From Glandiceps talaboti (taxonomy: Eukaryota; Hemichordata; Enteropneusta; Spengelidae): a stretch of 64,000 nucleotides of DNA. The DNA lies in assembly GCF_964340395.1 (NCBI RefSeq), contig NC_135570.1:17199322-17263321 (forward strand). The letters are read 5' to 3'. Below the pieces are notes generated by a model, which was given only the letters and a program-made list of their open reading frames with translations, was not told the DNA's origin and made no database searches. Shown here one piece after another: positions 4,643-39,774 of the stretch. The number at the start of each line of letters is the position of its first letter. The stretch's first letter is position 1. The position numbers were made by a program, and so were the translations under genes.

Positions 4643-6209
<1,567 letters not shown>

Positions 6210-8480: not shown

Positions 8481-8654
8481 GTTAAATAGAACTTGATCAG
8501 ATTTATAAATGGGGCAGTTACAGCTATCATGGCTCTAAAATAGAACTCTTGTCAGTTTTATAAACAGGGCAAACAGTTACAGCTGTCATGGAGAGAGAGA
8601 GAGAGGGTTCACATGAACTAGTTAGGTGAATAAATATGTATAAACAGAACGGTT

Positions 8655-11600: not shown

Positions 11601-12340
11601 ATTATAAAATGACGTGTGTATACGTATGCATTATAAAATGACATATGTATACGTATGCATTATAAAATGACGTATGTGTACGTATGCATTATAAAATGAC
11701 GTATGTGTACGTATGCATTATAAAATGACGTATGTGTACGTATGCATTATAAAATGACGTATGTGTACGTATGCATTATAAAATGATGTATGTGTACGTA
11801 TGCATTATAAAATGACGTATGTATACATATGCATTATAAAATGACATATGTATACGTATGCATTATAAAATGACGTATGTGTACATATGCATTATAAAAT
11901 GACGTATGTATACGTATGCATTATAAAATGACATGTGTGTACGTATGCATTATAAAATGACATGTGTGTACGTATGCATTATAAAATGACATGTGTGTAC
12001 GTATGCATTATAAAATGACATGTGTGTACGTATGCATTATAAAATGACGTATGTGTACGTATGCATTATAAAATGACGTATGTATACGTATGCATTATAA
12101 AATGACGTATGTGTACGTATGCATTATAAAATGACGTATGTATACGTATGCATTATAAAATGACGTATGTGTACGTATGCATTATAAAATGACGTATGTA
12201 TACGTATGCATTATAAAATGACGTATGTATACGTATGCATTATAAAATGACGTATGTATACGTATGCATTATAAAATGACGTATGTGTACATATGCATTA
12301 TAAAATGACGTATGTGTATGTATGCATTAGAAAATGACAT
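8655..12340 (+). repeat. 29-bp minisatellite, about 127 units, with TGACGT in nearly every unit
   Basis: Unit: TGACGTATGTGTACGTATGC followed by ATTATAAAA. Variants change TGTGTAC to TGTATAC, GTATG to GTGTG or GTAGG, and ATTATAAAA to ATTAGAAAA. The length is almost invariant, with one shortened unit near 10722. It fills most of the gap between the transposon and the 3' end of ATAD1. Confidence 0.99.
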
Positions 12341-13107
12341 AATTGGTGTGTACATATCTTTAACAAAAAATAACATAATTGATACATTTACAGTTTGTAA
12401 CATTTCTTCTGGTTTATTTTGCTTTCATACAAAATTTAAAGACTGTATAACTTGTATTTGTTCACCACACCTTCTGTACACAACTCTACTCATTACTAAA
12501 ACGTTATATTAATTATGTCATTTTTAGAGACACATTGATTCATAAATTATGTTTATAACTTCTGTTGTAACTCTCTGTGTATATCATCTTATAGCCACCA
12601 ATACATAAAAGACAAAAAAAAAAAAAACCTATATCAAATTTATCAGTAAGCCCACACCACCTTTGAGCAACTTACAAGCAAACAAGTCTTAGTGACAACA
12701 TTGTCTGTGAAAAAAAAATCATGTTTTTATCCAAACACTGTAGATATAATAATAGCATGGGTCAGCTAGCAACAAATGTCACTAGTTGTATTTTGTGGTC
12801 TATTTAAGCTACATAAGTTATAATGTGCCAAAACCCCTATTTACCTAAAAACAGTCGATTTTTGCTCTTTATGGCTGCATGACCTTAAAGTTTGGAAGTT
12901 GTTTTTTTAATTGAAGCAAATATAATGTTGTTTGAAAAATGGTAAAAAATAACAACAGGAGAGTTCCATGAATGGGCTACATGGTAAACAATTTGCTCTG
13001 ACTTTTTTTGAAAACAATGAAACAATATCTTATTGCTTGTATTTTTAACAACATGACGAGTGTGTCATAGAGAACCCTCTACAGTTTCACAATGGATGGA
13101 TGGATAT
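12341..13107. other. AT-rich single-copy spacer
   Basis: Between the 29-bp array and the 3' side of ATAD1. Poly-A/T runs and no convincing exon on either strand. It could hold the end of the ATAD1 3' UTR on the minus strand. Confidence 0.5.
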
Positions 13108-13262
13108 CTATCTCTGTTGTACCATTCACTGCAGTCTTTAATGGACGTCTATCTCTGTTGTACCATTCACTGCAGTCTTTAATGGACGTCTATCTCTGTT
13201 GTACCATTCACTGCAGTCTTTAATGGACATCTATCTCTGTTGTACCATTCACTGCAGTCTTC
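13108..13262. repeat. 41-bp tandem repeat, 4 units
   Basis: CTATCTCTGTTGTACCATTC followed by ACTGCAGTCTTTAATGGACGT recurs at 13108, 13149, 13190 and 13231. Confidence 0.93.
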
Positions 13263-13325
13263 AACCATATATTCCCGCTCAATTGCAATCTTCAACACAT
13301 TTTGTACACAATGTTCATGTTGTTT

Positions 13326-13916
13326 AAGTCTTGTCCGATGACATCACAGTAGTCAGTTAGTCTAGTCCAATGACATCACAGTACAGTCAGTTAGTCTAGT
13401 CCAATGACATCACAGTACAGTCAGTTAGTCTAGTCCAATGACATCACAGTACAGTCAGTTAGTCTAGTCCGATGACATCACAGTACAGTCAGTTAGTCTA
13501 GGCCAATGACATCACAGTATAGTCAGTTAGTCTAGTCCGATGACATCACAGTACAGTCAGTTAGTCTAGTCCAATGACATCACAGTACAGTCAGTTAGTC
13601 TAGTCCAATGACATCACAGTACAGTCAGTTAGTCTAGTCCAATGACATCACAGTACAGTCAGTTAGTCTAGTCCGATGACATCACAGTACAGTCAGTTAG
13701 TCTAGTCCGATGACATCACAGTACAGTCAGTTAGTCTAGTCCGATGACATCACAGTACAGTCAGTTAGTCTAGTCCGATGACATCACAGTACAGTCAGTT
13801 AGTCTAGTCCGATGACATCACAGTACAGTCAGTTAGTCTAGTCCTATGACATCACAGTACAGTCAGTTAGTCTAGTCCAATGACATCACAGTACAGTCAG
13901 TTAGTCTAGTCCGATG
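13326..13916 (-). repeat. 34-bp minisatellite, about 17 units, overlapping the ATAD1 stop codon
   Basis: Plus-strand unit: TTAGTCTAGTCCAATGACAT followed by CACAGTACAGTCAG, with CCAATG/CCGATG variants. The outermost unit on the ATAD1 side reads TTAGTCTAGTCCGATG; its complement encodes the last residues and the TAA stop of ATAD1. The rest of the array therefore lies in the presumed 3' UTR. Confidence 0.97.
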
Positions 13917-14027
13917 TTACTTGCTATCTTACCATCCCTTTTCTGTTTTGCATCATCCATTTTCAACTTGGCTCCTTGTAGATCTGACAATGTCAGTGGC
14001 CTTAACATTTCAAGGTCATCATCGTTG
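13901..14027 (-). CDS. ATAD1: ATAD1 exon 8 (C-terminus), stop codon inside a minisatellite unit
   Basis: Acceptor ATTAATTTAG. It completes the Ser codon split from exon 7, then [20 protein letters not shown], matching the RPVQQQDLHRAIEKMKK area of human ATAD1. The frame continues through KIASNIGLD to TAA; human also ends in LD. A GATG|GTAAGA donor at 13932 is an alternative end, but no better last exon was found downstream. Confidence 0.72.
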
Positions 14028-17000
14028 CTAAATTAATGCAAGAAAACACACAAGATAAGATGATATCATTAAGGGCTATTAGGCAAACTAACTGATAAGT
14101 CCATTTAGTTAATTTGGTTTTGATCCCGGTACTCGTGCATATGCAATCAACCATACACCACAGGTCAAAATGGAGATTTTATTGTTCATAGTTCCAAGAA
14201 TCAATAGTACAATTATCAATATAATTACTTTTGAATTATAAATTGGAAATGAATGCCATATTTTGATCCATCGGACCTGTAGTAGACGGACCTGTAGTAG
14301 ATGGACCTGAAGTAGACGGACCTGTAGTAGATGGACCTGAAGTAGACAGACCTGTAGTAGACGGACCTGTAGTAGATGGACCTGAAGTAGACAGACCTGT
14401 AGTAGACGGACCTGTAGTAGACAGACCTGTAGTAGACAGACCTGTAGTAGACGGACCTGAAGTAGTAGACGGACCTGTAGTAGACGGACCTGTAGTAGAC
14501 GGACCTGTAGTAGACGGACCTGTAGTAGACGGACCTGAAGTAGACAGACCTGTAGTAGACGGACCTGTAGTAGAGGGACCTGTAGTAGACGGACCTGTAG
14601 TAGATGGACCTGTAGTAGACGGACCTGTAGTAGACGGACCTGTAGTAGACGGACCTGTAGTAGACGGACCTGTAGTAGACAGACCTGTAGTAGATGGACC
14701 TGAAGTAGACAGACCTGTAGTAGATGGACCTGAAGTAGACAGACCTGTAGTAGACGGACCTGTAGTAGACGGACCTGTAGTAGACAGACCTGTAGTAGAT
14801 GGACCTGTAGTAGACGGACCTGAAGTAGACAGACCTGTAGTAGACGGACCTGTAGTAGAGGGACCTGTAGTAGACGGACCTGTAGTAGATGGACCTGTAG
14901 TAGACAGACCTGAAGTAGACGGACCTGTAGTAGACGGACCTGTAGTAGACGGACCTGTAGTAGACAGACCTGTAGTAGACAGACCTGTAGTAGTAGACGG
15001 ACCTGTAGTAGTAGACGGACCTGTAGTAGACGGACCTGTAGTAGACGGACCTGTAGTAGGCGGACCTGTAGTAGACGGACCTGTAGTAGACGGACCTGTA
15101 GTAGGCGGACCTGTAGTAGGCGGACCTGTAGTAGACGGACCTGTAGTAGTAGACGGACCTGTAGTAGTAGGCGGACCTGTAGTAGACGGACCTGTAGTAG
15201 ACAGACCTGTAGTAGTAGACGGACCTGTAGTAGACGGACCTGTAGTAGACGGACCTGTAGTAGGCGGACCTGTAGTAGGCGGACCTGTAGTAGACAGACC
15301 TGTAGTAGTAGACGGACCTGTAGTAGTAGGCGGACCTGTAGTAGACGGACCTGTAGTAGACGGACCTGTAGTAGACGGACCTGTAGTAGACGGACCTGTA
15401 GTAGGCGGACCTGTAGTAGACGGACCTGTAGTAGGCGGACCTGTAGTAGGCGGACCTGTAGTAGAGGGACTTGTAGTAGACGGACCTGTAGTAGACAGAC
15501 CTGTAGTAGACGGACCTGTAGTAGACGGACCGAAATGTTGAATTCATTTCCAATTTACCTTTCCAAAGTAACTATATTGTACTGTACCTTTTCCAACATT
15601 GATTGGCTTCATTCTAGATCGTTCAGAGTCATCTGGCTGCTTTTATAAAAAGGTATGAACTATACATTAACTATACATCGTCCAGATATGACTCTAGATT
15701 TCGAGACACAAAGGAATCTGAGAGCCATGAAAATTCACTTCATCATGACATGCCTTGTGAATTCTTGAATTGTGTTAGACAAGGATGTAACCATCAATGA
15801 GCTGTATTGAATCAAAGTATAGACCTGTATCAAGCTTACCATGAAGTATGTAAACTTTCCGGTGCATATTAGCAATGTTACAATGGTTTGAGGTTTTTTT
15901 TTTGTGTGTGTGTGTGTTAGAGACGCCATTTCCATTGGAAAATATCGCAGGTGCAGAGTGAGGACATCATGTCACATGCTTGCTACTTAATACAATTTAC
16001 TTGTGTTATGTGGTAATAATCAAGTCACATTACTTGTGTTATGTGGTAATAATCAACAGTCACATTACTTGTGTTGTGTGGTAATAATCAACAGTCACAT
16101 TACTTGTGTTGTGTGGTAATAATCAACAGTCACATTACTTGCATTGTGTGATAATCATCAACAGTCACATTACTTGTGTTGTGTGGTAATAATCAACAGT
16201 CACATTACTTGTGTTGTGTGGTAATAATCAACAGTCACATTACTTGTGTTGTGTGGTAATAATCAACAGTCACATTACTTGTGTTGTGTGGTAATAATCA
16301 ACAGTCACATTACTTGCGTTGTGTGATAATCATCAACAGTCACATTACTTGTGTTGTGTGGTAATAATCAACAGTCACATTACTTGTGTTGTGTGGTAAT
16401 AATCAACAGTCACATTACTTGTGTTGTATGGTAATCATCAACAGTCACATTACTTGTGTTGTATGGTAATAATCAAGTCACATTACTTGTGTTGTGTGGT
16501 AATAATCAACAGTCACATTACTTGTGTTGTGTGGTAATAATCAAGTCACATTACTTGTGTTGTGTGGTAATAATCAACAGTCACATTACTTGTGTTGTGT
16601 GGTAATAATCAACAGTCACATTACTTATGTTGTGTGGTAATAATCAAGTCACATTACTTGTGTTGTGTGATAATCATCAACAGTCACATTACTTGTGTTG
16701 TGTGGTAATAATCAACAGTCACATTACTTGTGTTGTGTGGTAATAATCAACAGTCACATTACTTGCGTTGTGTGATAATCATCAACAGTCACATTACTTG
16801 TGTTGTGTGGTAATAATCAACAGTCACATTACTTGTGTTGTGTGGTAATAATCAACAGTCACATTACTTGCGTTGTGTGATAATCATCAACAGTCACATT
16901 ACTTGTGTTGTGTGGTAATAATCAACAGTCACATTACTTGTGTTGTATGGTAATAATCAAGTCACATTACTTGTGTTGTGTGGTAATAATCAACAGTCAC

Positions 17001-20000: not shown

Positions 20001-23000
20001 AGTTAGATTTTTCTTGAATAAAACCTGTTCTGTGTGGACTTTTATTTGTGAAATTACACAATTATAATATATTCCTTATATTATGGTATAAGCTAACTAG
20101 GTATACTAACTGTATCTAAAATTCTAACCGTTCCAGCTTGAATATATCTCCAACTAGTTTACTAGAGGATGACATCAGCCCTACTTGTGAAGGTATTTTA
20201 TTTTTATCATTCCATAGCATTTTAAACTTTGTGCTCGATATTTCACAATATTATATAACTCTCAACAATATACCTCAACATGCATTACCTCACTTCAGAA
20301 ATGCAATCCTGGTACATGCGATCACTGACATGACCGGAGAGAACCTTTTCGGATTTAAAATGCAGAAAGAGACACAAAACATAATGCAAAGGCTGAAGCC
20401 AAACTATAGTTGTAGTTATTTTTACTAGGCAAATATTTGTATTTTGGAAATGGCAAGACATGTTTACATCATTAAAACTGTCAGCCTGTGAACAAAGTTT
20501 GCTTGATTCACTGAACTGAGTAAGCTTGCTATGAACTGGTCAATGCACTGAACTGAATAAGCTTGCTATGGACTGGTCAATGCACTGAACTGAATAAGCT
20601 TGCTATGGACTGGTCAATTCACTGAACTGATTAAGCTTGCTATGAACTGGTCAATTCACTGAACTGAATAAGCTTGCTATGGACGGGTCAATGCACTGAA
20701 CTGAGTAAGCTTGCTATGGACTGGTCAATGCACTGAACTGAACAAGCTTGCTATGAACTGGTCAATTCACTGAACTGAGTAAGCTTGCTATGGACTGGTC
20801 AATTCACTGAACTAAATAAGCTTGCTATGGACTGGTCAATTCACTGAACTGAATAAGCTTGCTATGGACTGGTCAATTCACTGAACTGAGTAAGCTTGCT
20901 ATGGACTGGTCAATGCACTGAACTGAATAAGCTTGCTATGGACTGGTCAATTCACTGAACTGAATAAGCTTGCTATGGACTGGTCAATTCACTGAACTGA
21001 ATAAGCTTGCTATGGACTGGTCAATTCACTGAACTGAATAAGCTTGCTATGGGACTGGTCAATTCACTGAACTGAGTAAGCTTGCTATGGACTGGTCAAT
21101 GCACTGAACTGAATAAGCTTGCTATGGACTGGTCAATTCACTGAACTGAATAAGCTTGCTATGGACTGGTCAATGCACTGAACTGAATAAGCTTGCTATG
21201 GACTGGTCAATTCACTGAACTGAGTAAGCTTGCTATGGACTGGTCAATGCACTGAACTGAATAAGCTTGCTATGGACTGGTCAATTCACTGAACTGATTA
21301 AGCTTGCTATGGACTGGTCAATTCACTGAACTGAATAAGCTTGCTATGGACTGGTCAATGCACTGAACTGAATAAGCTTGCTATGGACGGGTCAATGCAC
21401 TGAACTGAGTAAGCTTGCTATGGACTGGTCAATGCACTGAACTGAGTAAGCTTGCTATGGACTGGTCAATGCACTGAACTGATTAAGCTTGCTATGGACT
21501 GGTCAATTCACTGAACTGAATAAGCTTGCTATGGACGGGTCAATGCACTGAACTGAGTAAGCTTGCTATGGACTGGTCAATTCACTGAACTGAATAAGCT
21601 TGCTATGGACTGGTCAATGCACTGAACTGAATAAGCTTGCTATGGACTGGTCAATTCACTGAACTGAGTAAGCTTGCTATGGACTGGTCAATGCACTGAA
21701 CTGAATAAGCTTGCTATGGACTGGTCAATTCACTGAACTGAATAAGCTTGCTATGGACTGGTCAATTCACTGAACTGAATAAGCTTGCTATGGACTGGTC
21801 AATTCACTGAACTGAATAAGCTTGCTATGGACTGGTCAATGCACTGAACTGAATAAGCTTGCTATGGACTGGTCAATGCACTGAACTGAATAAGCTTGCT
21901 ATGGACTGGTCAATGCACTGAACTGAATAAGCTTGCTATGGACTGGTCAATTCACTGAACTGAATAAGCTTGCTATGGACTGGTCAATGCACTGAACTGA
22001 ATAAGCTTGCTATGGACTGGTCAATGCACTGAACTGAATAAGCTTGCTATGGACTGGTCAATTCACTGAACTGAGTAAGCTTGCTATGGACTGGTCAATG
22101 CACTGAACTGAGTAAGCTTGCTATGGACTGGTCAATTCACTGAACTGAATAAGCTTGCTATGGACTGGTCAATTCACTGAACTGAGTAAGCTTGCTATGG
22201 ACTGGTCAATGCACTGAACTGAGTAAGCTTGCTATGGACTGGTCAATTCACTGAACTGAATAAGCTTGCTATGGACTGGTCAATTCACTGAACTGAATAA
22301 GCTTGCTATGGACTGGTCAATTCACTGAACTGAGTAAGCTTGCTATGGACTGGTCAATTCACTGAACTGAATAAGCTTGCTATGGACTGGTCAATGCACT
22401 GAACTGAATAAGCTTGCTATGGACTGGTCAATTCACTGAACAGAATAAGCTTGCTATGGACTGGTCAATTCACTGAACTGAATAAGCTTGCTATGGACTG
22501 GTCAAATCACTGAACTGAATAAGCTTGCTATGGACTGGTCAATTCACTGAACTGTAAATAATACTACCTTCAAATTTATTGTCAATTCTTACCTTTCATG
22601 AGGTAATTGCTGTTCTTGTCTCTGTTCTTTGATATAGTCTTTTACTCTAAATACTGACGCATTGCGACACAATTCCCATAAATCACTACCAGAATAACCA
22701 GCAGTTTCATCGGCAACTAAAGACAGATCTACATCTTCTGACATCTGTAAATAACACAAACCATAACAGTATTACATTTACATCATATAATTGGATATTT
22801 ACTGCATAATCTTTTTCTTTTGTTCAGCCAAGGCAAATATGAATAACCTGAGGGGCTTTGTTACTATGAGTTGTAAGTCGATTTGTGACAAAACCCCTTT
22901 GGTCATGAGTATTGTCATACTGAATTAATCTAGCACTGAACAATTATTACAGGGATAAACCAGCAAAGCTTATTTCTGTCTTTAGTATCCTTACATTAAT

Positions 23001-26000: not shown

Positions 26001-29000
26001 AATTATGCAAATTATTCATTAACACTGAAAGGTACACCAACAAGCTTTACAGGACACATGTGATTGTTATGGTTAACATGTGTACTGAATTATATTGGAA
26101 TTGAAGTATGTATTCTTAAGATATAGCCTAATTACCAAAAATAGTTAATTATGCAAATTATTCATTAAAGCTGTAAGATACATCAACGAATTTTATAGGA
26201 CAAATGTATGTTGTTATGTTTAATGAATATACTAAATTATATTGAAATTGAAGTATGCAGTCTTAAGATATTGCATAATTAGTTGATTTCATTAATATGC
26301 AAATTTCTCTAATTAAACATTAACAGATCTGGCTCAAAACCTAATCAGGTCTTGCTATTACCCTAACGATTATATATCCCAAATTTCATTACAATTGAGC
26401 CAGTCGATTTTTAGAAAATGATGACACAGACACACAGACACACAGACAGACAGACAGACACAGACACACCTTCCCCTTTTAATACCTCCCGTACCCTTAC
26501 GGGAGGTAAAAATAATGACTGATACGAACAAATCAGAAGGCAAGGAAATTATAGCCAATTACAGCCAGGGATAAATTACCTGTTACCAGTCCAAGTTATC
26601 AAAGCTGATATGGAACTAGAAATTTATATTTCAGCCATTATTGTTGCCCTAACTACCAGGATAGAGTATACATTAACCAGGGCCCTAACTACCAGGATAG
26701 AGTATACATGTACATTAACCAGGGCCCTAACTACCAGGATAGAGTATACATGTACATTAACCAGGGCCCTAACTACCAGGATAGAATATACATTAATCAG
26801 GGCCCTAACTACCAGGATAGAATATACATTAATCAGGGCCCTAACTACCAGGATAGAGTATACATTAACCAGGGTCCTAACTACCAGGATAGAGTATACA
26901 TTAACCAGGGCCCTAACTACCAGGATAGAATATACATTAATCAGGGCCGTAACTACCAGGATAGAGTATACATTAACCAGGGCCCTAACTACCAGGATAG
27001 AATATACATTAATCAGGGCCGTAACTACCAGGATAGAATATACATTAACCAGGGTCCTAACTACCAGGATAGAGTATACATTAACCAGGGTCCTAACTAC
27101 CAGGATAGAGTATACATTAACCAGGGCCGTAACTACCAGGATAGAATATACATTAACCAGGGTCCTAACTACCAGGATAGAGTATACACTAATCAGGGCC
27201 CTAACTACCAGGATAGAGTATACACTAATCAGGGCCCTAACTACCAGGATAGAGTATACATTAACCAGGGCCCTAACTACCAGGATAGAGTATACACTAA
27301 CCAAGGCCGTAACTACCAGGATACAGCATAACATAGCATTGTATGGGTTGTAATAAACTGAATGAAAGTGTCAAGGTAGTAGTATCACACAAACCAAAAT
27401 ACATACATATTCATTGTCTAATATAAGCTCCAATATACATTGTCTTTGCTCTTTGTTCTGAAAATGAAAACACAGAAATAACATTTCATAGTTATATGTA
27501 ATATTGATGCAAAGTTGTAGAATTTTCTTGTCCTAAATCTCCATATAAAGACATGTCAAATAATACACTGTATTGCATTGAGAATACACTGTTACACTAC
27601 TTACATTAAAATTAAATATTTTATACTGAAATACTCAAAATGTTAATGACAACAAAGAAATTACTTGTCTCGGCTTTGATTCAGTGTCATTTGGATTATG
27701 TCTGTTCATCATGGTACAGTAGTCTCACAAAGAAGTTGAAGGGTAGACTACAAGTTCTGCAAAATAACATCATGAGATACATACTTAGTGCTGCTACTAG
27801 AACACACACTGGATATAATCAATTTGAACCTATAGGTATGTTTCCAGTAGAATTGAGAGTTGAGCAATTAAAACCTAATCATAAATTATGTTTAACATCA
27901 TAAATGGTTGTTCTCCCAAGTACTTACACTGCGATGTAGAAATGGTCCATAATTGGTATAGTTAGAGAACAAGAGTGAGTGAACTGTCATGTGTAATTCT
28001 AAGAGAAAGTGGTATGGGTAAGAGTTCATTGACATACAAAGGCATTTGTGTTTGGCATAGCAAGGCTGGAGATACAGTACTAAGCTATCCATGATATGGT
28101 ACTCTACATGCTAAAATGATTTCAGTCAGACACAATGACTTACAGGCATTCCTATATGAAACATACTGGGCATTCTTCTCAATATTGCTCCATCTACATC
28201 TTGAGGTCTATTTGTAGCACCCATCACTATCACCTAAATAAAGGAAAAAACAAATTTTGACAATGTAAGCTAGGTTTATCATTGTCCATACAACCTTATA
28301 AGGAAATATATCAGCATTGATGTAACTCTGTAAGGATACACATCATTGTTGTGACAATGAGCGAATATAATCATTACTTTGACCATATATGGAGACACAT
28401 CACCATTGCTATGCCCATATGGGTCTAATAGTTACTTTGACCATATATGGAGACACATCACCATTGCTATGCCCATATGGGTCTAATAGTTACTTTGACC
28501 ATATATGGAAACACATCACCATTGCTATGCCCATATGGGTCTAATAGTTACTTTGACCATATATGGAAACACATCACCATTGCTATGCCCATATGGGTCT
28601 AATAGTTACTTTCACCATATATGGAGACACATCACCATTGCTATGCCCATATGGATCTAATAGTTACTTTGACCATATATGGAGACACATCACCATTGCT
28701 ATGCCCATATGGGTCTAATAGTTACTTTGACCATATATGGAGACACATCACCATTGCTATGCCCATATGGGTCTAATAGTTACTTTGACCATATATGGAA
28801 ACATATTCTCACTTCTGTAACCATGAGGATGCCATGCTATGATCTCTTTTCAATACTGGCAATCTTTTTATCCTTATATGGAAATGCTTTTATCCTTATA
28901 TGGAAATGCTTTTTATCCTTATATGGAAATCTTTTTATCCTATATGGAAATGCTTTTATCCTTATATGGAAATTTTTTTTATCCTTATATGGAAATTTTT

Positions 29001-32000
29001 TTATCTTTACGTGGAAATCTTTTTATCTGTATATCAATCTTTTTATCCTTATATGGAACTTGTATATAACTAGCAAAAGTCTCTGTAAATGAGCTGACAT
29101 AGAGTATTTCAATTTTATCTTACCTGACAAGAATAGTCTGTTATAAGTCCATCCCATAGACTCATAAACTGAGCTTTCATCATAGCTGTTGCTTCATGGT
29201 CGTAGGAAGCTCGAGATCTTAGAAAAGAATCTACCTCATCAATGAATATAATGGTTGGTTGAATCTTGATAGCCTAAATATGATAACAAACAGGAAAGGG
29301 TTTATTACACGGATTCATTATACACGACGTATTCCTAACTTAATCCTGAATAATTAATGACCAAGCTGAGAATCACTATCCTTCTCAATAAATACTGGTA
29401 AGACGGACAAAAGAAATAAAAGAAAGGGTTTTGAATTGGATTACCGAGAGTAACTGTAATGTTTACCATACCCAGTTGAAATATACTGAATGACTTGAAT
29501 ACAGATTTGTATACTGTGTGTTTATATAATTTATAAACTGTAAATGTTACTTGCATGGGACTTGAGTATTCACACAGCTGTGCTGTACTCAGCACTAACT
29601 GTTTGTTTCCACGATCAATAAATTACCGTTCAAAGTTTGACTAAAACTATTCAAAGACATTGTGTCATACATTTGTCAAAAGGCCAATTCCAATCAAATG
29701 ATTATATTGTAAACGCATGCTACTGAGCTACCGGTACGTGTTGAGAACTATTTACTGTGGCCGGTTCTAATCTAGTTCTTTGTCCTATGATATGCATTCC
29801 GATGATGTGTTGGAATATTGTGGTGCAAATATCTAGTGTTAGTTCTAATCATGATCATCACCAACATGCATGATTGTCAAAAAGTACATTTGACAATCGT
29901 GCCCTATTTTAAAGATTAATTTGACTTTTGATGAGTCTTTTTGATGTTTCTGAGCATAACACTATTACAAGAAACTGGGAGAATTTACATTGAACAGTTT
30001 GAATCAAGTGTATAGGGAACGTCAGTGTAACAATGCCAATGTGACTGCAAGTTCATGTGGCATGTGAAATCATGGTCTATTTTCTTTTGTCTGTAAAAGC
30101 ACAACAATTAAAGTGTGACATTCAGCCATTTGATTTGTTTCCTGTTCCTCGATTTCAGCTGTGGTGTAAATAGCCGGAATGATCTTTATTAATTCACAGG
30201 CACTGACAGACATATTTTTACACATATCTTGAGACCACTACACTAACCAAAAGTGACTTGATTGACACATATCACTCTGTCTAGATCACACATAGATGTA
30301 GATAGTATATGTGGGAGTAGTACAATGTTGTAAGTAGCTATGTAAACATGTGTGACAGCATACACAAACTACACATATTGTGACGAACTCGTGGAAAGTA
30401 CATGAGAAACTCTAAAACACTAGAATAGATTGCCTATGAAAGTTAATAAGTGGTAGCGTTAGCAAGCCTTTGATAAATGTGAAACACCTGCTGTCACACC
30501 AAGCTGTTTGATTGACCTTGTGTATGGCAGAACATACACTATAAAATTGAGTACAGACACATTTGCCAATGCCAGCGTCTCTAGACCACGGCACAGCCCA
30601 AGAAACCTGAAATATCATGATCAACTCAACCAACTATTTACTGTTCTCATTTGACAATTAGTACGACTCAAAGACTATCGTTGCACGTTTTGTCTGTGGG
30701 GCCTATCCGACAGAAAGTCTATTAGACCCACAAACATATTGAATTATCAATTTTCAGTGAACAGAGTTTGTCGTATAATCTCTGTGGAATTATCGTGTTA
30801 AAGGCCGAGTTGTAATCTACAAAAATGTAGATTGCATATGTGCATGGTGACTCTAGATGGTGACAGAAGTATATAAGTGAAGGGCTAATGCAACAGCATC
30901 ATCAACAGACTTATTTGCACGATATGCAAATTAAAATTGATCGAGTGATGAGTTAGTAACAGACTTAAGATATTTCAGAATTAACCTTTCAAAGAAAACT
31001 GGTGTAAACGCTACTGAAATCATTAAGACAAGAGATTTTACTTTTCTTTGTTTGGTACTGGTATAATTTTGGATGTTTTAAAACACACAGGTACTTTGCA
31101 TTGGCTAAGAGAGTCATTGAAAATATCGGTAAAAACTGGAGAGCTCGAGGGTGCATAGTGATTCATTATCTGGTCCGGGTGTTTTCTTGTTATTCTGTGC
31201 ACTAAATAATTGTTATGGTTAACATATGCACCAAATTATATTGAATTTGAAGTATGCGTTCCAATAGCCTAATAACTCAAAACCATTAATTATGCAAATA
31301 TTGAAATAACTAATTAATATTCATTGGATGTTTACCAAAATCTAATCAGGTCTTGCCATTAGCATATGGAAGCAAATTTCATTATAATTGAGCCAGCCAT
31401 TTTTAAGAAAATTATGACACAGACAGACAGACAGACAGACAGACACACAAACACATACACACACAGATGGATGGACGGACAGACAGACAGACAGACACAC
31501 AGACAGACATGCACACAGACAGACATCCTCCTTTTAATACCTCCCGTACCCTCATGGGAGGTACCGGGTAATGCTTTATACTGCCCTATAACCCCCTAGA
31601 GGGTGTGCTCTTTGCATCCCTGCAAATTAGTGGTTTGTATCTGGACTACTCATGCCCACTGGTACTTTACAAAATTCACACATTGCAGTAGTTGGCTATT
31701 TAAGCTGCCCAAATTTCTGATCCTAGTGTTCACCTGGTACATGTAGCGGTGTTTATTATTAAACTTTCCCTCCCTCTTTCCCTACTTTTTTCTCTACCAA
31801 TGTTTTTGTGAAGGTTGGTAAGTAGGTAAAATCTACCTAAGTTCCCCAGTTATTTTACCTATGTTCCCTACCAGTTGTCATTTTACCAGGGTTCTCTACC
31901 AGTGTGTTTGTTAAGGGGGTAAGTAGGTAAAATGAACCTGTGTTCCCCTGTCATTTTACCAGGGTTCTCTACAGTGTGTTTGTTAAGGGGGTAAGTAGGT

Positions 32001-35000
32001 AAAATAAAACGCACCTGTGTTCCCCTGTCATTTTACCAGGGTTCTCTACAGTATTTGTTAAGGGGGTAAGTAGATAAACTGAACCTGTGTTCCCCTGTCA
32101 TTTTACCAGGGTTCTCTACAGTGTGTTTGTTAAGGGGGTAAGTAGGTAAAATGCACCTGTGTTCCCCTGTCATTGTACTAGGGTTCTCTACCAGTGTTTT
32201 TGTTAAGGGGGTAAGTAGGTAAAATGCACCTGAACTGACGCACATGCAAACAAATTTCTGCTCAGTGAGACACACAGCCAATCAGGTTGCGTCTTAATTG
32301 TCATGGGCATACATGTACGCATTGAATAGTAGAGGAGGCGATCTGGCTAAAAAATATAAACATGTACCAAGAAGGTCAATTCTGGCAAAATAACGAAGGT
32401 AAAATAGCAATGAACGATTAGCCGACATCTACATCGGATTTTAATCAGATTGTCAAGAATGCATGTTTCAAATTCATTATAACTTGGTACATACATTTGT
32501 GATACCAAAGCGCATCTGTCCTGAAAATATTATCGATGTAGCTTTTAGTTTTAATAAGTTATTGGCATATTTTCGGTAATTAGACGCTATGGCCACACAA
32601 AAGAAAGTTGTTGTTTCTGGTCAAGAAATGTTTCCTAAAGTGGTGTGGCAATGCAAATGTTTTTGTTAATTGTTCATGATTAGTTGTGCAGTTGTCTTCC
32701 CTGAAGTAGCAATTAATGTAGGGAGAGTTATTTTTATGTTTTCCCTTGGATCTGCAGTCTGCATTGACTGGACAACACAAGAAAAAAGAAGATCGAGGCG
32801 GGGGTATTAAAGTGATGCAAACTGACCAGAAAACAATTCTTTTGTTTTCTTGGCCTTAAAAACGCCCACCGTGAGATTTATGCTACAACTTTCTATAAAA
32901 GGTTCCCATTATTACATGTGTGGTTGGCCGTAAGATCGCATCTGCCAGTGAAATCATAAATATCGGCATTCAGCAGTTGACATTCTAAATTTACTGGTAT
33001 ATAAACGGTGAAATTTCACATTTACCGGCACAGATCAGTTGTGCTAAAAAAACAGACATTGAGCTAAATTTCTTGCATAAATCATGGAATTGCAAGGCTA
33101 TACCCTTACGGAAGGCATTCAGTTTAAATCTGGCAATACCTGATATCCTCCTTTCTGTTACCATGGTTTCCTCACCTTACCCAAATAACTGGTCAACTAA
33201 TACTTTGTAAAGTCACTTTGTGGAGAAAAGTGACCAAAAGTATAAAATGGTACAGCTGCTGTTGGTGAAATTTGGTTTGTATGTCCCGAGGGTTATAAGC
33301 TATTACTGAGTACATGTAACTTTTAGACTGGTTAGTAATAGTCTGGATGCCAACGTGGTCTCTAACTAAAACCGTGACAATATCATATAGGAACTAGACT
33401 GATTAGTAATTACCATACCAATCAACTAATTATGATTAACTTACTAGTGAGAAGACTGCTGCAGCTAATTTCTGTGATTCCCCATACCATTTGTCTGTTA
33501 AAGTAGATGCCTGTAAGTTGATAAACCGGAAACCAGCTTCTTTAGCCATTGCCTTAGCAATCATCGTCTTGCCACACCCTGGTGGACCATGAAGAAGTAT
33601 ACCTATAATACATAAACAATATCGTATCATATTCAAGTCACATATTCTATATTTGGGCATACATGTACATGTAATGACATTTCATATTTGGGCATACACA
33701 TCGTGACATATTCTATATTTGGGACTACATGTAGTGACATATTCCATATTTGGGTATACATGTGATATATTCCATATTTGGGAATACATGTGATATATTC
33801 CATATTTGGGAATACATGTGATATATTCCATATTTGGCCAGACTGCTTAAGTCTCCTTTGACATGATATAGAAAATACAATCATTGCATTGCTACACAGC
33901 CATACTGTTCCATTCATAGTTTTAGTTTATATAATATAGTATATAGCAGTGGGTGCTTGATAAAATTAATAAAAACAAGTCATTGAGAATGACATAGGGT
34001 TTAAGGAACTGGGGAACATGCCTACTCATGTTGTGTCTCCTCGTTGGACATGGTACATGCCTACTCTTCAAGATGACATCATGGAATATAACCATTCAAC
34101 AATAAAGGATGGGTTGGGTACGGGGGGGGGGGGGGGGGGGGGACCTGTTCAAGCATGTCTGAGTTATGGCTTTGGACATGGAAGATTCACAAACAAAATG
34201 GCTGCCAGGCAGCCATATTGGATCATATCACAACAACAATGAATATGCACATGTATGTCATAGAACACTGTCCTAATACCGACTTTGAATGAGATCTGTT
34301 CAAGCATGTCTGAGTTATGGCTTTGGACAGGGAAAATTTGCAAACAAAATGGCTGCTAGGTGGCCATATTGGATCGTATCATGAAACAAATTGACGTGCA
34401 TATGTATGCCATAGTATGTTGCCCCTGTACCAAGGTTGAAAAAAAATTGGTCCAGACATCTCCAAGAAACGGCTCCAGATGGATGGAACCCAATCCATAA
34501 GTCCCCATCCCAGACTTTGTTCGATGGGGACTAATTAAAACACTAGAATTAAAAGGTTGCACATCTTTAAAATTACATGTATATCAAACTGGCTATATAT
34601 TGTTAGTAATATTTTCACAATTCATGTCACAGAATGGCTTGTACAATTCATGTCACAGAATGGCTTGTACAATTCATTTCACAGAATGGCTTGTACAATT
34701 CATTTCACAGAATGGCTTGTACAATTCATTTCATGGAATGGCTTGTACAATTCATGTCATAGAATGGCTATAGTACAATGTATAGCTACCATTCTACCAA
34801 ATACTACATAGTATCATATCCCATAGTACATTACATGTATAATAAGCCACAAATTTCATTTTGTCTCACCTTTTGGAGGCTGTAAAAGGCTGGAACCTCT
34901 AAACAAATGTCTCTTCTTCATGGGAAGTATCACTGTTTCTTGTATTTCTTCTATAACATCTTCCAAGCCACCAATATCTCTCCAAGTTACTTGGATACCT

Positions 35001-38000
35001 AATGGGTCGATTAGTAAGGCTGCTATAGACATTTCATACTCTGTCAATTTGACTCCTTTCACACCAATTTTACCCATTAGTCTTTCAGCCTGAAATAAAA
35101 AGATATGACAGTACAGGCTTTATACATGAATGTCTTACTGAGGGGGTGACCTCCTTTCTGAATCCCCCTGCCCTTGGACCATGCAAGTGGCAACATGCTT
35201 AAGTTCCTTTAAAGTGTATGTGCAAAGGTTGATAATTTTTTTCATTATTATGTTTATTTTGCCATAAAAATAAATGAAATTGCATTCATACCTCTAAATG
35301 TTACGCGCACTGGCAAGAAATGTCACAAAAATACTTGCCCCGTTAATCCCCTGTGCTTCGACTAACTTTGGCACCTCAGCCAGCTAACGAAAGATGTCGA
35401 GGTCCCACATATTACAAATGACTTCTAAGCCTTTGTGTTATGTTTACTTATGAATTACTAATTGCGTCACCATATAATAGTATTATCTGTAACTGTACAT
35501 ATTGTTGTGTACCAGATTAGTCTTCCAGCAACAATGGTTCCCTGGCATTTTGTCGGTGGGTGTAGCAGCACCTGCAGTGAAACAATCACCCTACACACAT
35601 TTCTGAAAGATAACTTTGTAGGTAATGGGTGAAGGCAGTTGTGTAAAAATTGTTCAGTGACACCATACAGTGAAAGCCGGTAAATGTTACTGGGGTTCTC
35701 CATGCCACAGGTGTAGCCATGATCAAAGCGAAAAAAAGGAAAACTTATAAAATAATTTGAAATGGTGTTTTTCGAAATTTAAAGAAAGCAAGTTAGCTTC
35801 ATAAAATATTTTCAGTACGATAGCAATTTTTTGGAAACCAATGGGTAGTCCGACTGTTTCGATTTCCATGGTGCTGAGAGTCGATTGTTTTCATTTTGAT
35901 GATAATTATAGATGGTTTATTAAAACAGTTTTGTGACCACATGCTAAAATGGTCAAATTATTTGAGTTTACATATCAGTTAAAATAAGAATAGAAAGAGA
36001 GCTTGCTCAAAAGAAAAAACACTGGTCAAAAAATTCAATTAAAATCATACTAATAAAAATCTGAACATGGAGAACAAGATAAAAGCTTTTTTACACACAC
36101 AAAAACCCTCAAAAATACACAAAGAACAAAAACAAAAACAAACAGGAAAAAAACCAAAACGTATACATTTGTACAATGAAAATCTACAAGCGAGACAGTT
36201 TATTTAGCCAACCTAACACTATAGACAACAGGACTGTTTTCTTTTCGTTTGGTCCTACATTTGAAAGTGACATTTCCATTATTACGTGTATGATACTTGT
36301 GTTGAACTGGGGGCAGCACCAGGTGATGGAGTCTGTGATCATCCTTAAGTATAGAGGATGCAAACGCTTTACAAATATGCTTACGTCTATTCTCAAGGGT
36401 TTTGATGTTAAGTAACTGTAGAGCCTGACTGTAGGATTGAAATGGGTATATTATACGGAGTGCCCTCTTTTGGACACTCTCCAATGCTGCTCTGAGTTTG
36501 TCTGATAGTCCTCCCTGCCATACAACACTGGAGTATTCTAGGCAGGAACGGACTAAAGAAATGCAAATAAGCTTTAGGTCCTCGTTGTTTGCACCATACC
36601 TATTCAGGACTCTCAAGGTGTGTAGACGTTTGGATGCTTTGCTTATGATTTCATTAATATGTACATCCCATTTCAAGTTGTAGGTGACATTTAATCCCAA
36701 ACATTTGTAAACATTAACAATTTCTAAGACATAACAAGAGGAGTGAGATCTACATCAGTCTTTGAAAAAGACAGTCTTATTTCTTTACATTTCTTTGGAT
36801 TTAAACTCATGTTGTTGTTGGAAGACCAGTCAAAAATTCTAGTTAGATCATCTTGTAAGTTAGATTTACTGGTATCATTGCAATGAAAATGTTCTGATAT
36901 TGTGGTATCATGCATGAAAACAAAGTGTGAGTTACAATAGGAACCTGGATATCATTAATCATCAAAAATAAATAAAATTGGACCGAGTTTTGTAAAAAGA
37001 CGCAACGCTATGTAAAATGTTGCTATTTTTGTTTCCATTGTTTTGTCTACCTGAAAAATTAGTGTATCATGCCAAACACATATCCATAGTGGATGGACAC
37101 AGCACAGTACAGTCAACACTTCATGATCTCAGGTCAAATAAATCCACAATGTATGTAAGACATGTCTATCCATCAAAAACTCAAACAAAACAAAAATACG
37201 CAATTACACCATGATACGGTCGGCTTCAGTGAGCACGGGCCGTGCTTTGAAAAATGATACCACTTCATGTCACTGTGTGGATGGTAATGAACTTAGTAAC
37301 CAGATTTAAACTGAATGCCTCCTGTAAGGGAATAACTAATTATGCAAATAGCTCATTAAACTAAAAAAATTATGGTAACAAGCTTTGTTTTTTGGACAAC
37401 ACTAATTACCAAAAATAATTAATTATGCAAATTATTCATTAACGCTGTAAGATACATCAACGAATTTTATAGGACAAATGTATGTTGTTATGTTTAATGA
37501 ATATACTAAATTATATTGAAATTGAAGTATGCAGTCTTAAGATATTGCGTAATTAGTTGATTTCATTAATATGCAAATTTCTCTAATTAAACATTAACAG
37601 ATCTGGCTCAAAACCTAATCAGGTCTAGCTATTACCCTAAAGATTATATATCCCAAATTTCATTACAATTGAGCCAGCCGATTTTTAGAAAATGATGACA
37701 CAGACAGACAGACAGACAGTCAGACAGACAGACAGGCATTCCCCTTTTAATACCTCCCGTACCCTTACGGGAGGTAAAAAAGTGAAATAAAGTGGGTACA
37801 TAGTTTTTCAAAAGGGATAGTTTTCCAACAAAAGTTTCTGCTGTGGTCAATTTAATCTGTGGTTGTACTTTCGCGAACATTTTGAATGGTCATAGAATGT
37901 ACTGTGACGACACATACTACAACAACTTGAGAGAATATTATTGGGAACTAATTGTGTTGTATTGTCTTCTCGTGACGCCATTCTCATCCGACCTCTGTAT

Positions 38001-39190
38001 GTTTGATGGGTATGAAAATATTAGATAATTTTCGTTTCGATTATAATTCAATAATTGGGAATTAGAATATACAATTTCTTATTTCAGTGACATTTTATCG
38101 AGTGTCACCTTAGTAGTGTCAGTTGACAACACACAACGGTATGTGTTTACATGCAAACGATCGTTGATCTTCTAGCTTACATGTACTAATACATCCATAA
38201 CTAGTCAAAGTTATAAACTAGATTCACAAAAAGTGCAATTTTGCACTTCCATTCAGCGAGGAGTATAGCGTATCACATGGAATTCACAAAATTCGACGGA
38301 CAAAAGTAACAAAACGTAATATGTTACATCTAATGTTAATGACAATAACTGTCACCTACAATTTACATTGACAACTGCATACATGCAATAAAAAAAATAC
38401 AAAGTCCTGTTATTCAGTTTTCGTGTTGTGAGATTGTCTGTGGGAGCTGTTTTCTACCCATTGAATAGTCACTGCCAGAGGAACTATCGTTACTGCTAGC
38501 TAAATCACACCATCAGATGTTAATGCTGGAGTGTATTGCTCTACGATTGAGGCATGTGACAAATATTCAACATCGTGTTCTGGCGAAAACCGGTTGAGAA
38601 GTTGACCTTCTGGCTCAGCCCTAATGGCTTTGCATGTAAAGATAAACTGAAGAGGACGATTGTGTTCCCGAAGTGACGTCACGATGTCCTATCCATATGC
38701 AAATGAAAGTACTTCCTGAGGTGCTCTGTGTGGCTGGACCTAGAGTGACTCATTTTTTACGCAATTTCTCACGTCAAAGCTATTCTATAATATCACAAAA
38801 CCCAATGTCCTTTATTTTTATGGCAAAATAAACATAATGACAAAAAAGTATCACCCTTTGCATGTACACTTTAATGTAAAGGTCCAAGTACATATTACAA
38901 TAGTTAGTATTGCAAGAAATGTCCCCATCTGTCAACTTTATAAAGTCCTTACAAATGAATTCTGTCTCTAACAATATTTTATATTTTTGTTGATACCAGT
39001 TCTAAGAAATAACCAATCAAGAAATACACACCTGTTTCTGTGCCTGTGCTTTTTGTTTTCTGGTAGGGTCCATTTGTTCTACAACCCATTTAATACCATA
39101 ATATGAACATACTCCAAATATAGCTAGACGTATCACTATGCCTGTTAGCTCTTGCCTTGATAAGGCCATACTTGCTCCTGCATTTGGCAT
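13901..39190 (-). CDS. ATAD1: ATAD1/Msp1 AAA ATPase, 8 coding exons, about 368 aa
   Basis: Outer-mitochondrial/peroxisomal membrane AAA ATPase that extracts mislocalised tail-anchored proteins (family knowledge). Exons in order of translation: 39190-39032, 35089-34870, 33602-33445, 29273-29124, 28233-28144, 27457-27407, 22744-22593, 14027-13901. All have GT-AG junctions and matching phases. N-terminal helix about 15-37, then DPTRKQK; linker with [12 protein letters not shown]; Walker A GPPGCGKT at 132-139; pore-loop region KWYGES; Walker B IIFIDE at 187-192; sensor-1 ATNR at 235-238; arginine fingers RR at 248-249; GYSGSDL at 292-298. Length is close to the 361 aa of the human protein and the order of motifs is the same. 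The last exon reads through a possible donor into the 34-bp array and stops at TAA 13903-13901. Introns are stuffed with arrays and mobile elements. Head to head with NOLC1. Confidence 0.95.
14272..15536 (-). repeat. 15-bp minisatellite (about 84 units), open on the minus strand for 440 codons
   Basis: Plus-strand unit GACGGACCTGTAGTA, with GACAGA, GATGGA, GGCGGA and CTGAAG variants and occasional 18-bp units carrying one extra TAG. All length changes are multiples of 3, so the minus strand stays open from an ATG at 15547 to a stop at 14225 and spells (Y)YYRSV repeats. The array is bracketed by a perfect 15-bp inverted repeat (14240-14254 and 15542-15556, AAATTGGAAATGAAT). It lies in ATAD1 intron 7. 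I treat it as a repeat, not a gene. Confidence 0.95.
15557..15997. other. Single-copy intronic sequence of ATAD1 intron 7
   Basis: Between the 15-bp and 35-bp arrays. Holds a short T8/GTGTGT run near 15894-15917. A 27-codon minus-strand open stretch at about 15560-15640 was tested as an exon and rejected on phase. Confidence 0.5.
15998..19819 (+). repeat. 35-bp minisatellite, about 108 units
   Basis: Unit: CACATTACTTGTGTTGTGTG followed by GTAATAATCAACAGT. A short 33-bp form lacks CA (ATCAAGTCAC instead of ATCAACAGTCAC). Other variants are TTGCGTTGTGTGATAATCATC, TTATGTGG and GTATGG. The TTGCG/ATAATCATC variant recurs as a linked haplotype. ATAD1 intron 7. Confidence 0.99.
19820..20500. other. 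Single-copy intronic sequence
   Basis: AT-rich stretch in ATAD1 intron 7. A plus-strand open frame of about 96 codons at 20138-20428 has no ATG start, no recognisable motif and ordinary AT-rich composition; not called. Confidence 0.5.
20501..22554 (+). repeat. 37-bp minisatellite, about 55 units, one HindIII site per unit
   Basis: Unit: AATAAGCTTGCTATGGACTG followed by GTCAATTCACTGAACTG, with AATTCAC/AATGCAC and GAATAAG/GAGTAAG/GATTAAG alternatives. The right end stops only 38 bp from the donor edge of ATAD1 exon 7. Confidence 0.99.
22593..22744 (-). CDS. ATAD1: ATAD1 exon 7 (sensor-2 / C-terminal helical domain)
   Basis: 152 bp. Acceptor TGTTATTTACAG, donor GAAAG|GTAAGA. Encodes [20 protein letters not shown] then [10 protein letters not shown], matching human VDLLEVAQETDGFSGSDLKEMCRDAA. 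Ends two bases into a codon that joins exon 8. Confidence 0.95.
22745..23291. other. Single-copy part of ATAD1 intron 6
   Basis: No exon, repeat array or element recognised. It leads directly into the 48-bp array. Confidence 0.5.
23292..25521 (+). repeat. 48/54-bp minisatellite interrupted by a mobile element
   Basis: Unit: TTAGCTATTATTTGGTTTGT, then CATATTTTATCTGCAATTCA, then TACTCAAA (48 bp). A block of 54-bp units (about 24460-24990) has TTTTAAATTGTCAT in place of TTTGTCAT. Both lengths are multiples of 3, so the plus frame is open from about 24120 to 25418 with no ATG start. Units left of 23419 and right of 24108 belong to the same array; a 690-bp element splits one unit. Confidence 0.97.
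23419..24108 (+). mobile_element. Helitron-like non-autonomous element, copy 1 (690 bp)
   Basis: Starts CAAGTCATTGAGAATGACAT, holds a poly-G tract (about 23676-23686), a GGAC/GGACA microsatellite (about 24020-24055) and ends with a GC-rich hairpin (24075-24105) running into CTAA. The interrupted minisatellite unit gives exact borders: host TTCAAA on the left and TTAGCTATT on the right, i.e. insertion between A and T with no duplication. CTRR end, 3' hairpin and A|T target are Helitron traits; the usual 5' TC is absent. A 2-bp AA duplication with a slightly shorter element is the alternative. Confidence 0.8.
25591..26511 (+). mobile_element. Pearl/HINE-like element, copy A
   Basis: Starts ACCAGATTTAAACTGAATGC. 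The middle has about five diverged repeats (about 110-150 bp) each with TTAATTATGCAAATTATTCA. Then ATTGAGCCAGTCGATTTTTA, an ACAGACAGACAC tract, and a 3' hairpin (26484-26507) of ACCTCCCGTA / TACGGGAGGT. Four other copies or fragments in this window share these ends. Left end, core repeats, GACA tract and right end is the layout described for pearl and Helentron-associated elements of bivalves and sea urchin. No coding capacity. Confidence 0.85.
26640..27335. repeat. 36-bp minisatellite, about 19 units, open in three frames
   Basis: Unit: ACCAGGGCCCTAACTACCAG followed by GATAGAGTATACATTA. Variants are GGGCCG/GGGTCC, AGAATA and ACACTAATC; two early units have a 6-bp insert (ATGTAC). ATG-started frames run across the array at 26610-27353 (+), 26708-27331 (+) and 27334-26624 (-). 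ATAD1 intron 6. Treated as a repeat. Confidence 0.97.
27407..27457 (-). CDS. ATAD1: ATAD1 exon 6 (51-bp microexon)
   Basis: Acceptor TGTTTTCATTTTCAG, donor GAATAT|GTATGT. Encodes [17 protein letters not shown], matching human ALKQREAILKLILKNEN. Phase 0 on both sides. Confidence 0.93.
27640..28090 (+). mobile_element. Decayed LINE (CR1/jockey-like) 3' coding fragment
   Basis: The plus frame reads [20 protein letters not shown], then [17 protein letters not shown] and LRVEQLK. This is the thumb/C-terminal pattern of non-LTR reverse transcriptases (L-H-L-Y-x-x-x-x-W, L-Q-x-x-Q-N). After a frameshift at about 27900 it continues [12 protein letters not shown] and [16 protein letters not shown]. 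Broken and non-functional, antisense in ATAD1 intron 5. Confidence 0.8.
28144..28233 (-). CDS. ATAD1: ATAD1 exon 5 (sensor 1, arginine fingers)
   Basis: 90 bp, phase 0/0. Acceptor CTTTATTTAG, donor [32 protein letters not shown] then [10 protein letters not shown]; near identical to human through the RRMP motif. Confidence 0.96.
28370..28808. repeat. 58-bp tandem repeat, about 7 units
   Basis: Unit: CTAATAGTTACTTTGACCAT, then ATATGGAGACACATCACCAT, then TGCTATGCCCATATGGGT. ATAD1 intron 4. Confidence 0.95.
28860..29070. repeat. 21-23-bp degenerate tandem repeat, about 9 units
   Basis: CTTTTTATCCTTATATGGAA with small length changes. It ends about 50 bp from the donor side of ATAD1 exon 4. Confidence 0.9.
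29124..29273 (-). CDS. ATAD1: ATAD1 exon 4 (Walker B)
   Basis: 150 bp, phase 0/0. Acceptor ATCATATTTAG, donor [32 protein letters not shown] carries the Walker B Asp/Glu pair; [19 protein letters not shown] is the conserved Msp1 block. Confidence 0.97.
29274..30879. other. ATAD1 intron 3, single-copy part
   Basis: No exon or array recognised. A short inverted pair (GTCTGTGGGGCC and TTAGACCCACAAAC) at about 30690-30736 could fold, and it lies next to a LINE remnant. Confidence 0.5.
30880..31170 (-). mobile_element. Decayed LINE reverse-transcriptase fragment
   Basis: The minus strand reads [20 protein letters not shown], then after a frameshift [20 protein letters not shown], an in-frame stop, and [18 protein letters not shown]. 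These are the finger/palm motifs of CR1/jockey-type reverse transcriptases (K-x-x-x-I-x-P-V-P-K; Q-F-A-Y-R-x-x-x-S-x-D-D-A). One frameshift and at least one stop: dead. Confidence 0.82.
31205..31562 (+). mobile_element. Pearl/HINE-like element, copy B (5'-truncated)
   Basis: Contains one core repeat, ATTGAGCCAGCCATTTTTAA, GACAGACA tracts and the 3' hairpin CTCCCGTACCCTCATGGGAG. Same family as 25591-26511 but lacks the left end. It directly follows the LINE fragment. Confidence 0.8.
31795..32232. repeat. About 70-bp degenerate tandem repeat, 5-6 units
   Basis: Units share GTTCTCTACCAGTGTGTTTG, TTAAGGGGGTAAGTAGGTAA and ACCTGTGTTCCCCTGTCATT. ATAD1 intron 3. Confidence 0.88.
32233..33444. other. 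ATAD1 intron 3, single-copy part with a small element fragment
   Basis: No exon or array found. A 34-bp scrap of the pearl/HINE-like family in minus orientation (TACCCTTACGGAAGGCATTC and AGTTTAAATCTGG) sits at 33101-33134. Confidence 0.5.
33445..33602 (-). CDS. ATAD1: ATAD1 exon 3 (Walker A, pore loop)
   Basis: 158 bp. Acceptor TATGTATTATAG, donor [32 protein letters not shown] then [20 protein letters not shown] and [13 protein letters not shown], nearly the human sequence. The first Gly codon is split from exon 2. Confidence 0.97.
33640..33840. repeat. 26-28-bp degenerate tandem repeat, about 7 units
   Basis: CATATTTGGGAATACATGTG followed by ATATATTC and variants, ATAD1 intron 2. It begins about 40 bp upstream of exon 3. 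Confidence 0.9.
33976..34534 (+). mobile_element. Helitron-like non-autonomous element, copy 2 (559 bp)
   Basis: Same family as 23419-24108, with the same start (CAAGTCATTGAGAATGACAT), poly-G (about 34119-34141, longer than in copy 1), internal homology and 3' hairpin before CTAA. It again lies between A (left) and T (right). It lacks the GGAC tract and part of the left region. Confidence 0.8.
34620..34775. repeat. 26-bp tandem repeat, about 6 units
   Basis: CACAGAATGGCTTGTACAAT followed by TCATGT or TCATTT, ATAD1 intron 2. Confidence 0.93.
34870..35089 (-). CDS. ATAD1: ATAD1 exon 2 (linker and N-terminal AAA)
   Basis: 220 bp. Acceptor TTTTATTTCAG, donor [31 protein letters not shown], then [20 protein letters not shown] and LLQPPKG; colinear with human ATAD1. 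Confidence 0.97.
35100..35689. other. ATAD1 intron 1, single-copy part
   Basis: No exon or array recognised. Confidence 0.45.
35690..35960 (+). repeat. Dispersed repeat family X, copy 1
   Basis: Shares GCCATGATCAAAG, then GGTAGCTTC/GTTAGCTTC ATAAAATATTTTCAGTACGA and TGAGAGT(C/T)GATTGTTTT with 62940-63210 and, inverted, with 43120-43310. No coding potential; class unknown. Confidence 0.65.
36200..36990 (-). mobile_element. LINE (CR1/jockey-like) reverse-transcriptase 3' half, degenerate
   Basis: Minus-strand open stretch of about 165 codons at 36700-36200: [20 protein letters not shown], then [34 protein letters not shown] and [14 protein letters not shown], the thumb and C-terminus of a non-LTR reverse transcriptase. 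Upstream (36915-36724) is [19 protein letters not shown]. Before that are GPILFIF and [10 protein letters not shown] in different frames, with FMHDTT where an active F-A-D-D-T core is expected. The stop codon at 36200 is likely the native ORF end. Inactive. ATAD1 intron 1, same strand. Confidence 0.88.
37299..37780 (+). mobile_element. Pearl/HINE-like element, copy C (core repeats deleted)
   Basis: Has the left end (ACCAGATTTAAACTGAATGC), about one core repeat, GACAGACA tract and the right hairpin. Its last 390 bp are almost identical to copy A, so it looks like an internally contracted version. Confidence 0.87.
37781..39031. other. ATAD1 intron 1, proximal part, with one exon-like minus-strand ORF
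   Basis: Mostly single-copy. At 38688-38500 (-) an acceptor-like ATGGATAG precedes [17 protein letters not shown] and about 45 more open codons to TAG, in phase 0. It would splice in frame to ATAD1 exon 1, giving a short membrane-anchored isoform, but I do not recognise the peptide. Confidence 0.3.
39032..39190 (-). CDS. ATAD1: ATAD1 exon 1 (coding part; membrane anchor)
   Basis: 159 bp from ATG, donor [32 protein letters not shown], then [17 protein letters not shown] and [13 protein letters not shown]; human has RLTIFGAVTYFTIKWMV and DPTRKQKVEAQKQ. A likely acceptor at CACACACAG|GTGTC (39199) puts a few 5' UTR bases in this exon. Confidence 0.93.
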
Positions 39191-39198
39191 ACTTGACA

Positions 39199-39774
<576 letters not shown>

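Follow-up and report, generated by a model that had tools for sequence, protein, structure and literature searches.

Minisatellites have been described at gene borders before. In amphioxus Adh, globin and troponin C genes, minisatellite-like arrays known as mirages duplicate exon-intron boundaries, and PGBD5 has been likened to them; passages of the two reports concerned (PMC3087553, PMC3902484) describe amphioxus mirages as occurring without disturbance of regular splicing. A second described system lies at the 3' end of a gene: the DAT1/SLC6A3 3'-UTR VNTR, for which a passage of PMC1325255 gives a 40-bp unit and 3-13 copies. As to how such arrays arise, a passage of PMC3389668 cites two models of minisatellite birth, in which slippage occurs either at repeats that are noncontiguous (Taylor and Breden 2000) or at direct repeats that are short and flank the array (Haber and Louis 1998); a last unit that is incomplete, and the flanking repeats themselves, are their marks. 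Here, we compare with these systems a 34-bp minisatellite whose first unit lies partly within the last coding exon of an ATAD1 gene.

The ATAD1 gene and its coding end

The window analysed—one stretch of 64,000 nt, with a GC content of 36%—carries an intact ATAD1 gene on its minus strand, with eight GT-AG coding exons running from 39190 to 13901. Spliced by hand, these exons give a coding sequence of 1107 nt, or 368 amino acids if translation starts at 39190, the first ATG in frame (there is another at 39169). The coding features are:

39032..39190, minus strand: coding exon 1; the presumed start ATG (39190) abuts a 38-bp minisatellite (39191-39592)
34870..35089, minus strand: coding exon 2
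33445..33602, minus strand: coding exon 3, with Walker A
29124..29273, minus strand: coding exon 4, with Walker B
28144..28233, minus strand: coding exon 5
27407..27457, minus strand: coding exon 6
22593..22744, minus strand: coding exon 7
13901..14027, minus strand: terminal coding exon, 127 bp including TAA; its acceptor reads ...TTAATTTAG, followed by the first exon base, C
13927..13932, minus strand: donor-like GTAAGA within the last exon, phase 1, probably unused

Membership of the product in ATAD1/Msp1, the outer mitochondrial membrane AAA ATPases, is evident from three properties: (i) it contains an AAA domain (Pfam AAA, E 1.3e-34) and an AAA lid (AAA_lid_3, E 1.1e-10), (ii) its best match over the whole cytosolic part is ATAD1 (best PDB match human ATAD1 8vxt, E 1.4e-136, query 40-361; phmmer), and (iii) its coding end lies at the homologous position, the final seven residues themselves falling outside the phmmer alignment. 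A further gene in the window, a Tetraspanin gene (Pfam Tetraspanin) of at least two exons, lies on the plus strand at 4532-6209 and is convergent with ATAD1.

The terminal exon is in frame with exon 7 (the junction codon, split AG/C, encodes Ser) and ends AGT AAC ATC GGA CTA GAC TAA. In the phmmer alignment, residues 40-361 of the 368 pair with residues 1-314 of the 321 in the human 8vxt chain, leaving seven residues over in each. The two proteins end ...IASNIGLD (window) and ...VLTHVCLD (human ATAD1; PDB 8vxt, 7upr), so that, LD excepted, the final residues are poorly conserved. The shared LD ending, together with the lengths of 368 and 361 amino acids, had been taken in an earlier, sequence-only reading of this DNA to favour real usage of the coding end. 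The LD ending is indeed common to both proteins, and the seven residues left on each side of the alignment support real usage by placing the end at a homologous position; the length argument is weak, the difference arising elsewhere (322 query versus 314 human residues aligned). When the 42-residue last exon alone was compared with the PDB (phmmer, E up to 10) no match was obtained, so that the whole-protein alignment is what carries the homology of the tail. The case for coincident ends is then one of position and LD, and convergence could account for the LD ending. Since both proteins end at the same aligned position, and both in LD, IGLD-stop is very probably the real stop of ATAD1, and the coding end old.

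The GTAAGA at 13932 raises another possibility: if this donor (13932-13927, minus strand, where the sequence-only reading had placed it) were used, the array would be intronic or intergenic and a different last exon would provide the true C-terminus. As a donor hexamer GTAAGA is good, and exons 4 and 7 of ATAD1 have the same one. Against its use, the unspliced frame already terminates at the homologous place, and a crude search for acceptors in 6300-13931, requiring 12 or more pyrimidines in 16 and a distance from the donor of 60 nt or more, revealed no plausible downstream terminal exon: it returned two acceptors, whose tails of 20 and 18 amino acids are unrelated to the human one. We consider splicing to another last exon very unlikely.

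A 34-bp array that begins in the last exon

The array and its surroundings comprise the following features:

13341..13916, minus strand: 34-bp minisatellite of 17 units; unit 1 overlaps the coding sequence, and the following 16 belong to the presumed 3' UTR
13901..13916, minus strand: the 16 bases common to exon and array, that is, the last base of the Asn codon plus ATC GGA CTA GAC TAA, which form the start of unit 1
13325..13340, minus strand: CATCGGACAAGACTTA, the distal part-copy, a decayed form of the 16-base coding piece
13100..13261, minus strand: 41-bp minisatellite downstream of ATAD1, 4.0 copies (TRF)

In gene sense, the repeat unit reads CATCGGACTAGACTAACTGACTGTACTGTGATGT. Sixteen units of 34 bp (13916-13373) are followed by one of 32 bp (13372-13341), arranged head to tail and highly alike, as expected of a minisatellite (units of ~10-100 bp); TRF reports 13327-13916 with a period of 34, 17.4 copies and 97% matches. 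The proposal from which we started, that the stop codon and last residues of ATAD1 are themselves a minisatellite unit, is confirmed by the 16 exact bases that exon and array have in common (13916-13901), and its figure of about 16 further copies agrees with the 16 units that follow the coding one in gene sense.

Both borders of the array are sharp. At the far end, the distal part-copy is recognisably related to the unit (local score 23 over 14 aligned bases, against a shuffle mean of 10.7; P 0.0015), while comparison with shuffles detects no likeness to the unit beyond the array, at 13321-13290 (P 0.55), or in the exon sequence before unit 1, at 13950-13917 (P 0.88). The array thus has the form (AB)17-A', in which A stands for the coding piece, B for the 18 bases that follow the stop directly, and A' for the decayed near-copy.

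The unit is confined to this place in the window. Its 20-base core, searched with up to three mismatches, occurs 17 times, always inside the array (0.03 occurrences expected from dinucleotide shuffles); elsewhere in the window the unit has no close relative, the best outside match being 13 bases long (E 0.045). Among 8 exons and 16 arrays, only the last exon and the 34-bp array share more than 11 exact bases (16); the other seven exons have at most 11 exact bases in common with any of the 16 arrays compared.

Two functional readings of the array itself were considered and rejected. Firstly, it is not a coding array: its period is not a multiple of three, and the tandem unit contains stops in all six frames, so that it yields no extended repeat peptide. 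Secondly, the predicted fold of the 606-nt RNA from 13322-13927 gives a z of -3.6 (20 shuffles); however, with shuffled units, each repeated four times, as the control, the array showed no excess of structure and, if anything, a deficit (z +1.3, 200 shuffles). The apparent RNA structure is therefore an effect of repetition.

The units beyond the stop probably stay in the mRNA as 3' UTR, a placement suggested by their position after the stop and by three ATTAAA motifs at 13224, 13183 and 13142. These are the nearest ATTAAA motifs after the 34-bp array, all lie within the 41-bp array, and could be candidate poly(A) signals, possibly several in a row. The only AATAAA in the scanned region (14027-12300) is at 12418. 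Use of the ATTAAA motifs would give a 3' UTR of ~0.7 kb, consisting largely of two minisatellites.

Origin of the array

The window is rich in arrays: 36 TRF arrays of period at least 14, counted after exclusion of those with a period of 12 or less, cover 28,035 of the 64,000 bases, or 44%. Random placement of the 20 arrays within 12-40 kb (692 accepted of 600,000 tries) leads one to expect 0.64 of the eight ATAD1 exons to overlap an array or lie within 5 bp of one, whereas two do so (P 0.12). The second exon in array contact is on the start side, where the last base of the 38-bp array at 39191-39592 immediately precedes the presumed ATG. An array overlapping an exon end is, in this setting, unsurprising; the unusual point is the particular border involved.

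These counts favour, as far as they go, the idea that gene end and array are neighbours by chance in a repeat-choked genome, with no particular gene-end origin and a copy number that is perhaps partly an assembly effect. Chance, however, accounts for meeting an overlap and not for the structure found here, in which the unit really holds coding sequence and the gene end is involved at any odds. As a full explanation we find it scarcely credible; as a circumstance, it is compatible with birth in place.

Several other repeats lie in or near the gene. An array lies no more than 80 bp from six of the eight ATAD1 exons, where the same random placements give 2.3 (P 0.006, for a threshold chosen post hoc and a single gene); the arrays at 20506-22554, 26646-27330, 28857-29058 and 33666-33837 are 38-76 bp from ATAD1 exons. 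The last ATAD1 intron (14028-22592) is 83% minisatellite, made up of three arrays with units of 15, 35 and 37 bp. The 15-bp array (14272-15531, 82 copies) is open almost throughout in four frames, three on the minus strand and one on the plus strand, for example as (GPSTT)n. At the start of the gene, the unit of the 38-bp array (39191-39592; 10.3 copies by TRF) carries an acceptor-like ...TATCACACACAG followed by GTGTC; repeat sequence may make up the ATAD1 5' UTR or the splice acceptor of that UTR. Elsewhere, 48047-48490 is a 126-bp tandem repeat (42 codons, 3.5 copies) that looks, by eye, Ser/Lys/Glu-rich and coding-like, and two tandem pairs of 151-bp period (23688-23983 and 34145-34440) have TRF consensus sequences that look almost identical; they are perhaps a dispersed element.

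The sequence-only reading had offered two origins for the junction: outgrowth of the array from the coding end, or capture of an existing array as the C-terminus. Under capture, the 34-bp repeat would have come first, whether at this place or another, and replaced an earlier coding end, IGLD-stop then being repeat sequence. Meetings between arrays and genes should be frequent with 44% of the window in arrays, and the last residues, apart from LD, are poorly conserved with respect to human; both points fit capture. The stop nevertheless lies at the homologous position, with the last two residues as in human, and the unit is absent from the rest of the window; as an exact 32-mer it also has no occurrence in the viral contigs scanned, a weak control. 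Capture thus seems unlikely to us. Of the two origins, it is outgrowth that the homologous coding end favours, because such an end would predate the array.

The best explanation, and one that we hold to be likely, is that the array was born in place from the ATAD1 coding end, was amplified to 17 units, and persists as it does little harm. The founder would have been a 34-bp stretch starting one base before the last four codons and running to 18 bases past the stop. This stretch would have been duplicated in tandem, by slippage or by unequal exchange between the near-copies A and A', and the tandem duplicate then amplified to 17 units, outward into the 3' UTR. Unit 1 would have stayed the functional coding end and stop, with the remaining units in the 3' UTR. 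We infer this order of events from the comparison with human only: the coding end is probably older than the array, and, given that it appears older, growth outward from the gene is the simpler history. Persistence would be expected if harm were slight: no more than four residues are encoded by the amplified coding piece, they belong to a tail that in human ATAD1 has no rigid structure and can be dispensed with in a cell assay, and the protein would stay the same when whole units are gained or lost.

The array also ends as the birth models lead one to expect. Unit 17 is incomplete (32 bp) and is followed by the part-copy at 13340-13325; the (AB)n-A' form, the shortened last unit and the part-copy at the end all resemble the models of Taylor and Breden and of Haber and Louis, as these are described in the passage of PMC3389668. 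The ATAD1 array differs from them in having no known founder allele.

Consequences for the protein and comparison with known systems

All 17 units read IGLD-stop; in the distal part-copy, by its sequence, Leu and stop are both lost. When each of the sixteen 34-bp units was placed at the coding edge in silico, the C-terminal ending was kept in every case (the first unit being the intact case). If the stop were read through, the misread codon would be followed by LTVL and then another stop, and frame shifts beginning in the IGLD codons would end after 2 or 13 residues. These protein-preserving properties follow from the repeat itself, and selection is not needed for them.

Across the 15 coding-like bases, the units show three distinct changes relative to the coding unit—C to T and C to A in the Ile codon, and A to C in the Gly codon—all of which are synonymous. 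With 27-39% of changes expected to be synonymous, the chance of this is P 0.019 to 0.057, depending on the mutation model. The C-to-T change in the Ile codon is present in 8 of the 17 units, falls in a CpG, and could reflect more than one mutation. Taken together, the changes hint weakly that selection may keep IGLD-stop in the units, three events being too few to build on. A stronger form of this idea is a renewable gene end, in which unit turnover would replace the coding unit while selection on the edge unit kept IGLD-stop, the array serving as a bank of spare stops; we think this improbable.

What is known of the human tail can be set beside these results. By position, the four unit-encoded residues would correspond to human ATAD1 358-361. 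A passage of PMC9273213 reports that residues 352-361 are without clear density, and that a 1-351 truncation still clears a mislocalised protein in cells. The same paper cites a family with encephalopathy in which a frame shift at residue 357 lengthens the protein by 10 residues; this variant was wild-type-like in the cell assay. In view of that family, changes to the tail may matter in ways that the cell assay misses, a point that counts against harmlessness. Most likely, the effect of the array is nothing of note, and the array is probably a neutral variant of known gene-boundary minisatellites; an influence of copy number on mRNA level, implied by the sequence-only reading, finds no support in this analysis.

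Comparison with the described systems shows where the ATAD1 array agrees with them and where it departs. Like mirages, as far as the published passages describe them, it lies at a functional border of a gene, and its tandem units combine sequence of the adjoining exon (16 exon bases) with the noncoding DNA next to it. In mirages, the unit spans an exon-intron boundary or splice signal, whereas the ATAD1 unit, in the gene model, spans coding sequence and 3' UTR: the border is a stop codon inside the terminal exon, involves no splice site, and the units probably stay in the mRNA. Because it lacks the exon-intron boundary, the ATAD1 array is mirage-like, and no mirage by the published definition. 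It resembles the VNTR of DAT1/SLC6A3 in the length of its unit and in its presumed place, the 3' UTR of a last exon; the DAT1/SLC6A3 minisatellite, according to the same passage of PMC1325255, leaves the protein unaltered. A search of the open-licence literature, in narrow terms that make absence a weak result, found no description of a minisatellite unit that holds a stop codon or coding end.

An array with such units is a variant of the known gene-border minisatellites, and two features give it its value. Firstly, the place and the sequence of its founder can be named, because that sequence is coding and comparison with other species can give its age. Secondly, if alleles differ in copy number, ATAD1 would offer an instance of repeat turnover renewing the stop codon of a protein, and its 3' UTR would vary in length by way of a minisatellite that starts at the stop itself. 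The ATAD1 array also extends the idea of the amphioxus mirage from splice borders to the stop-codon border.
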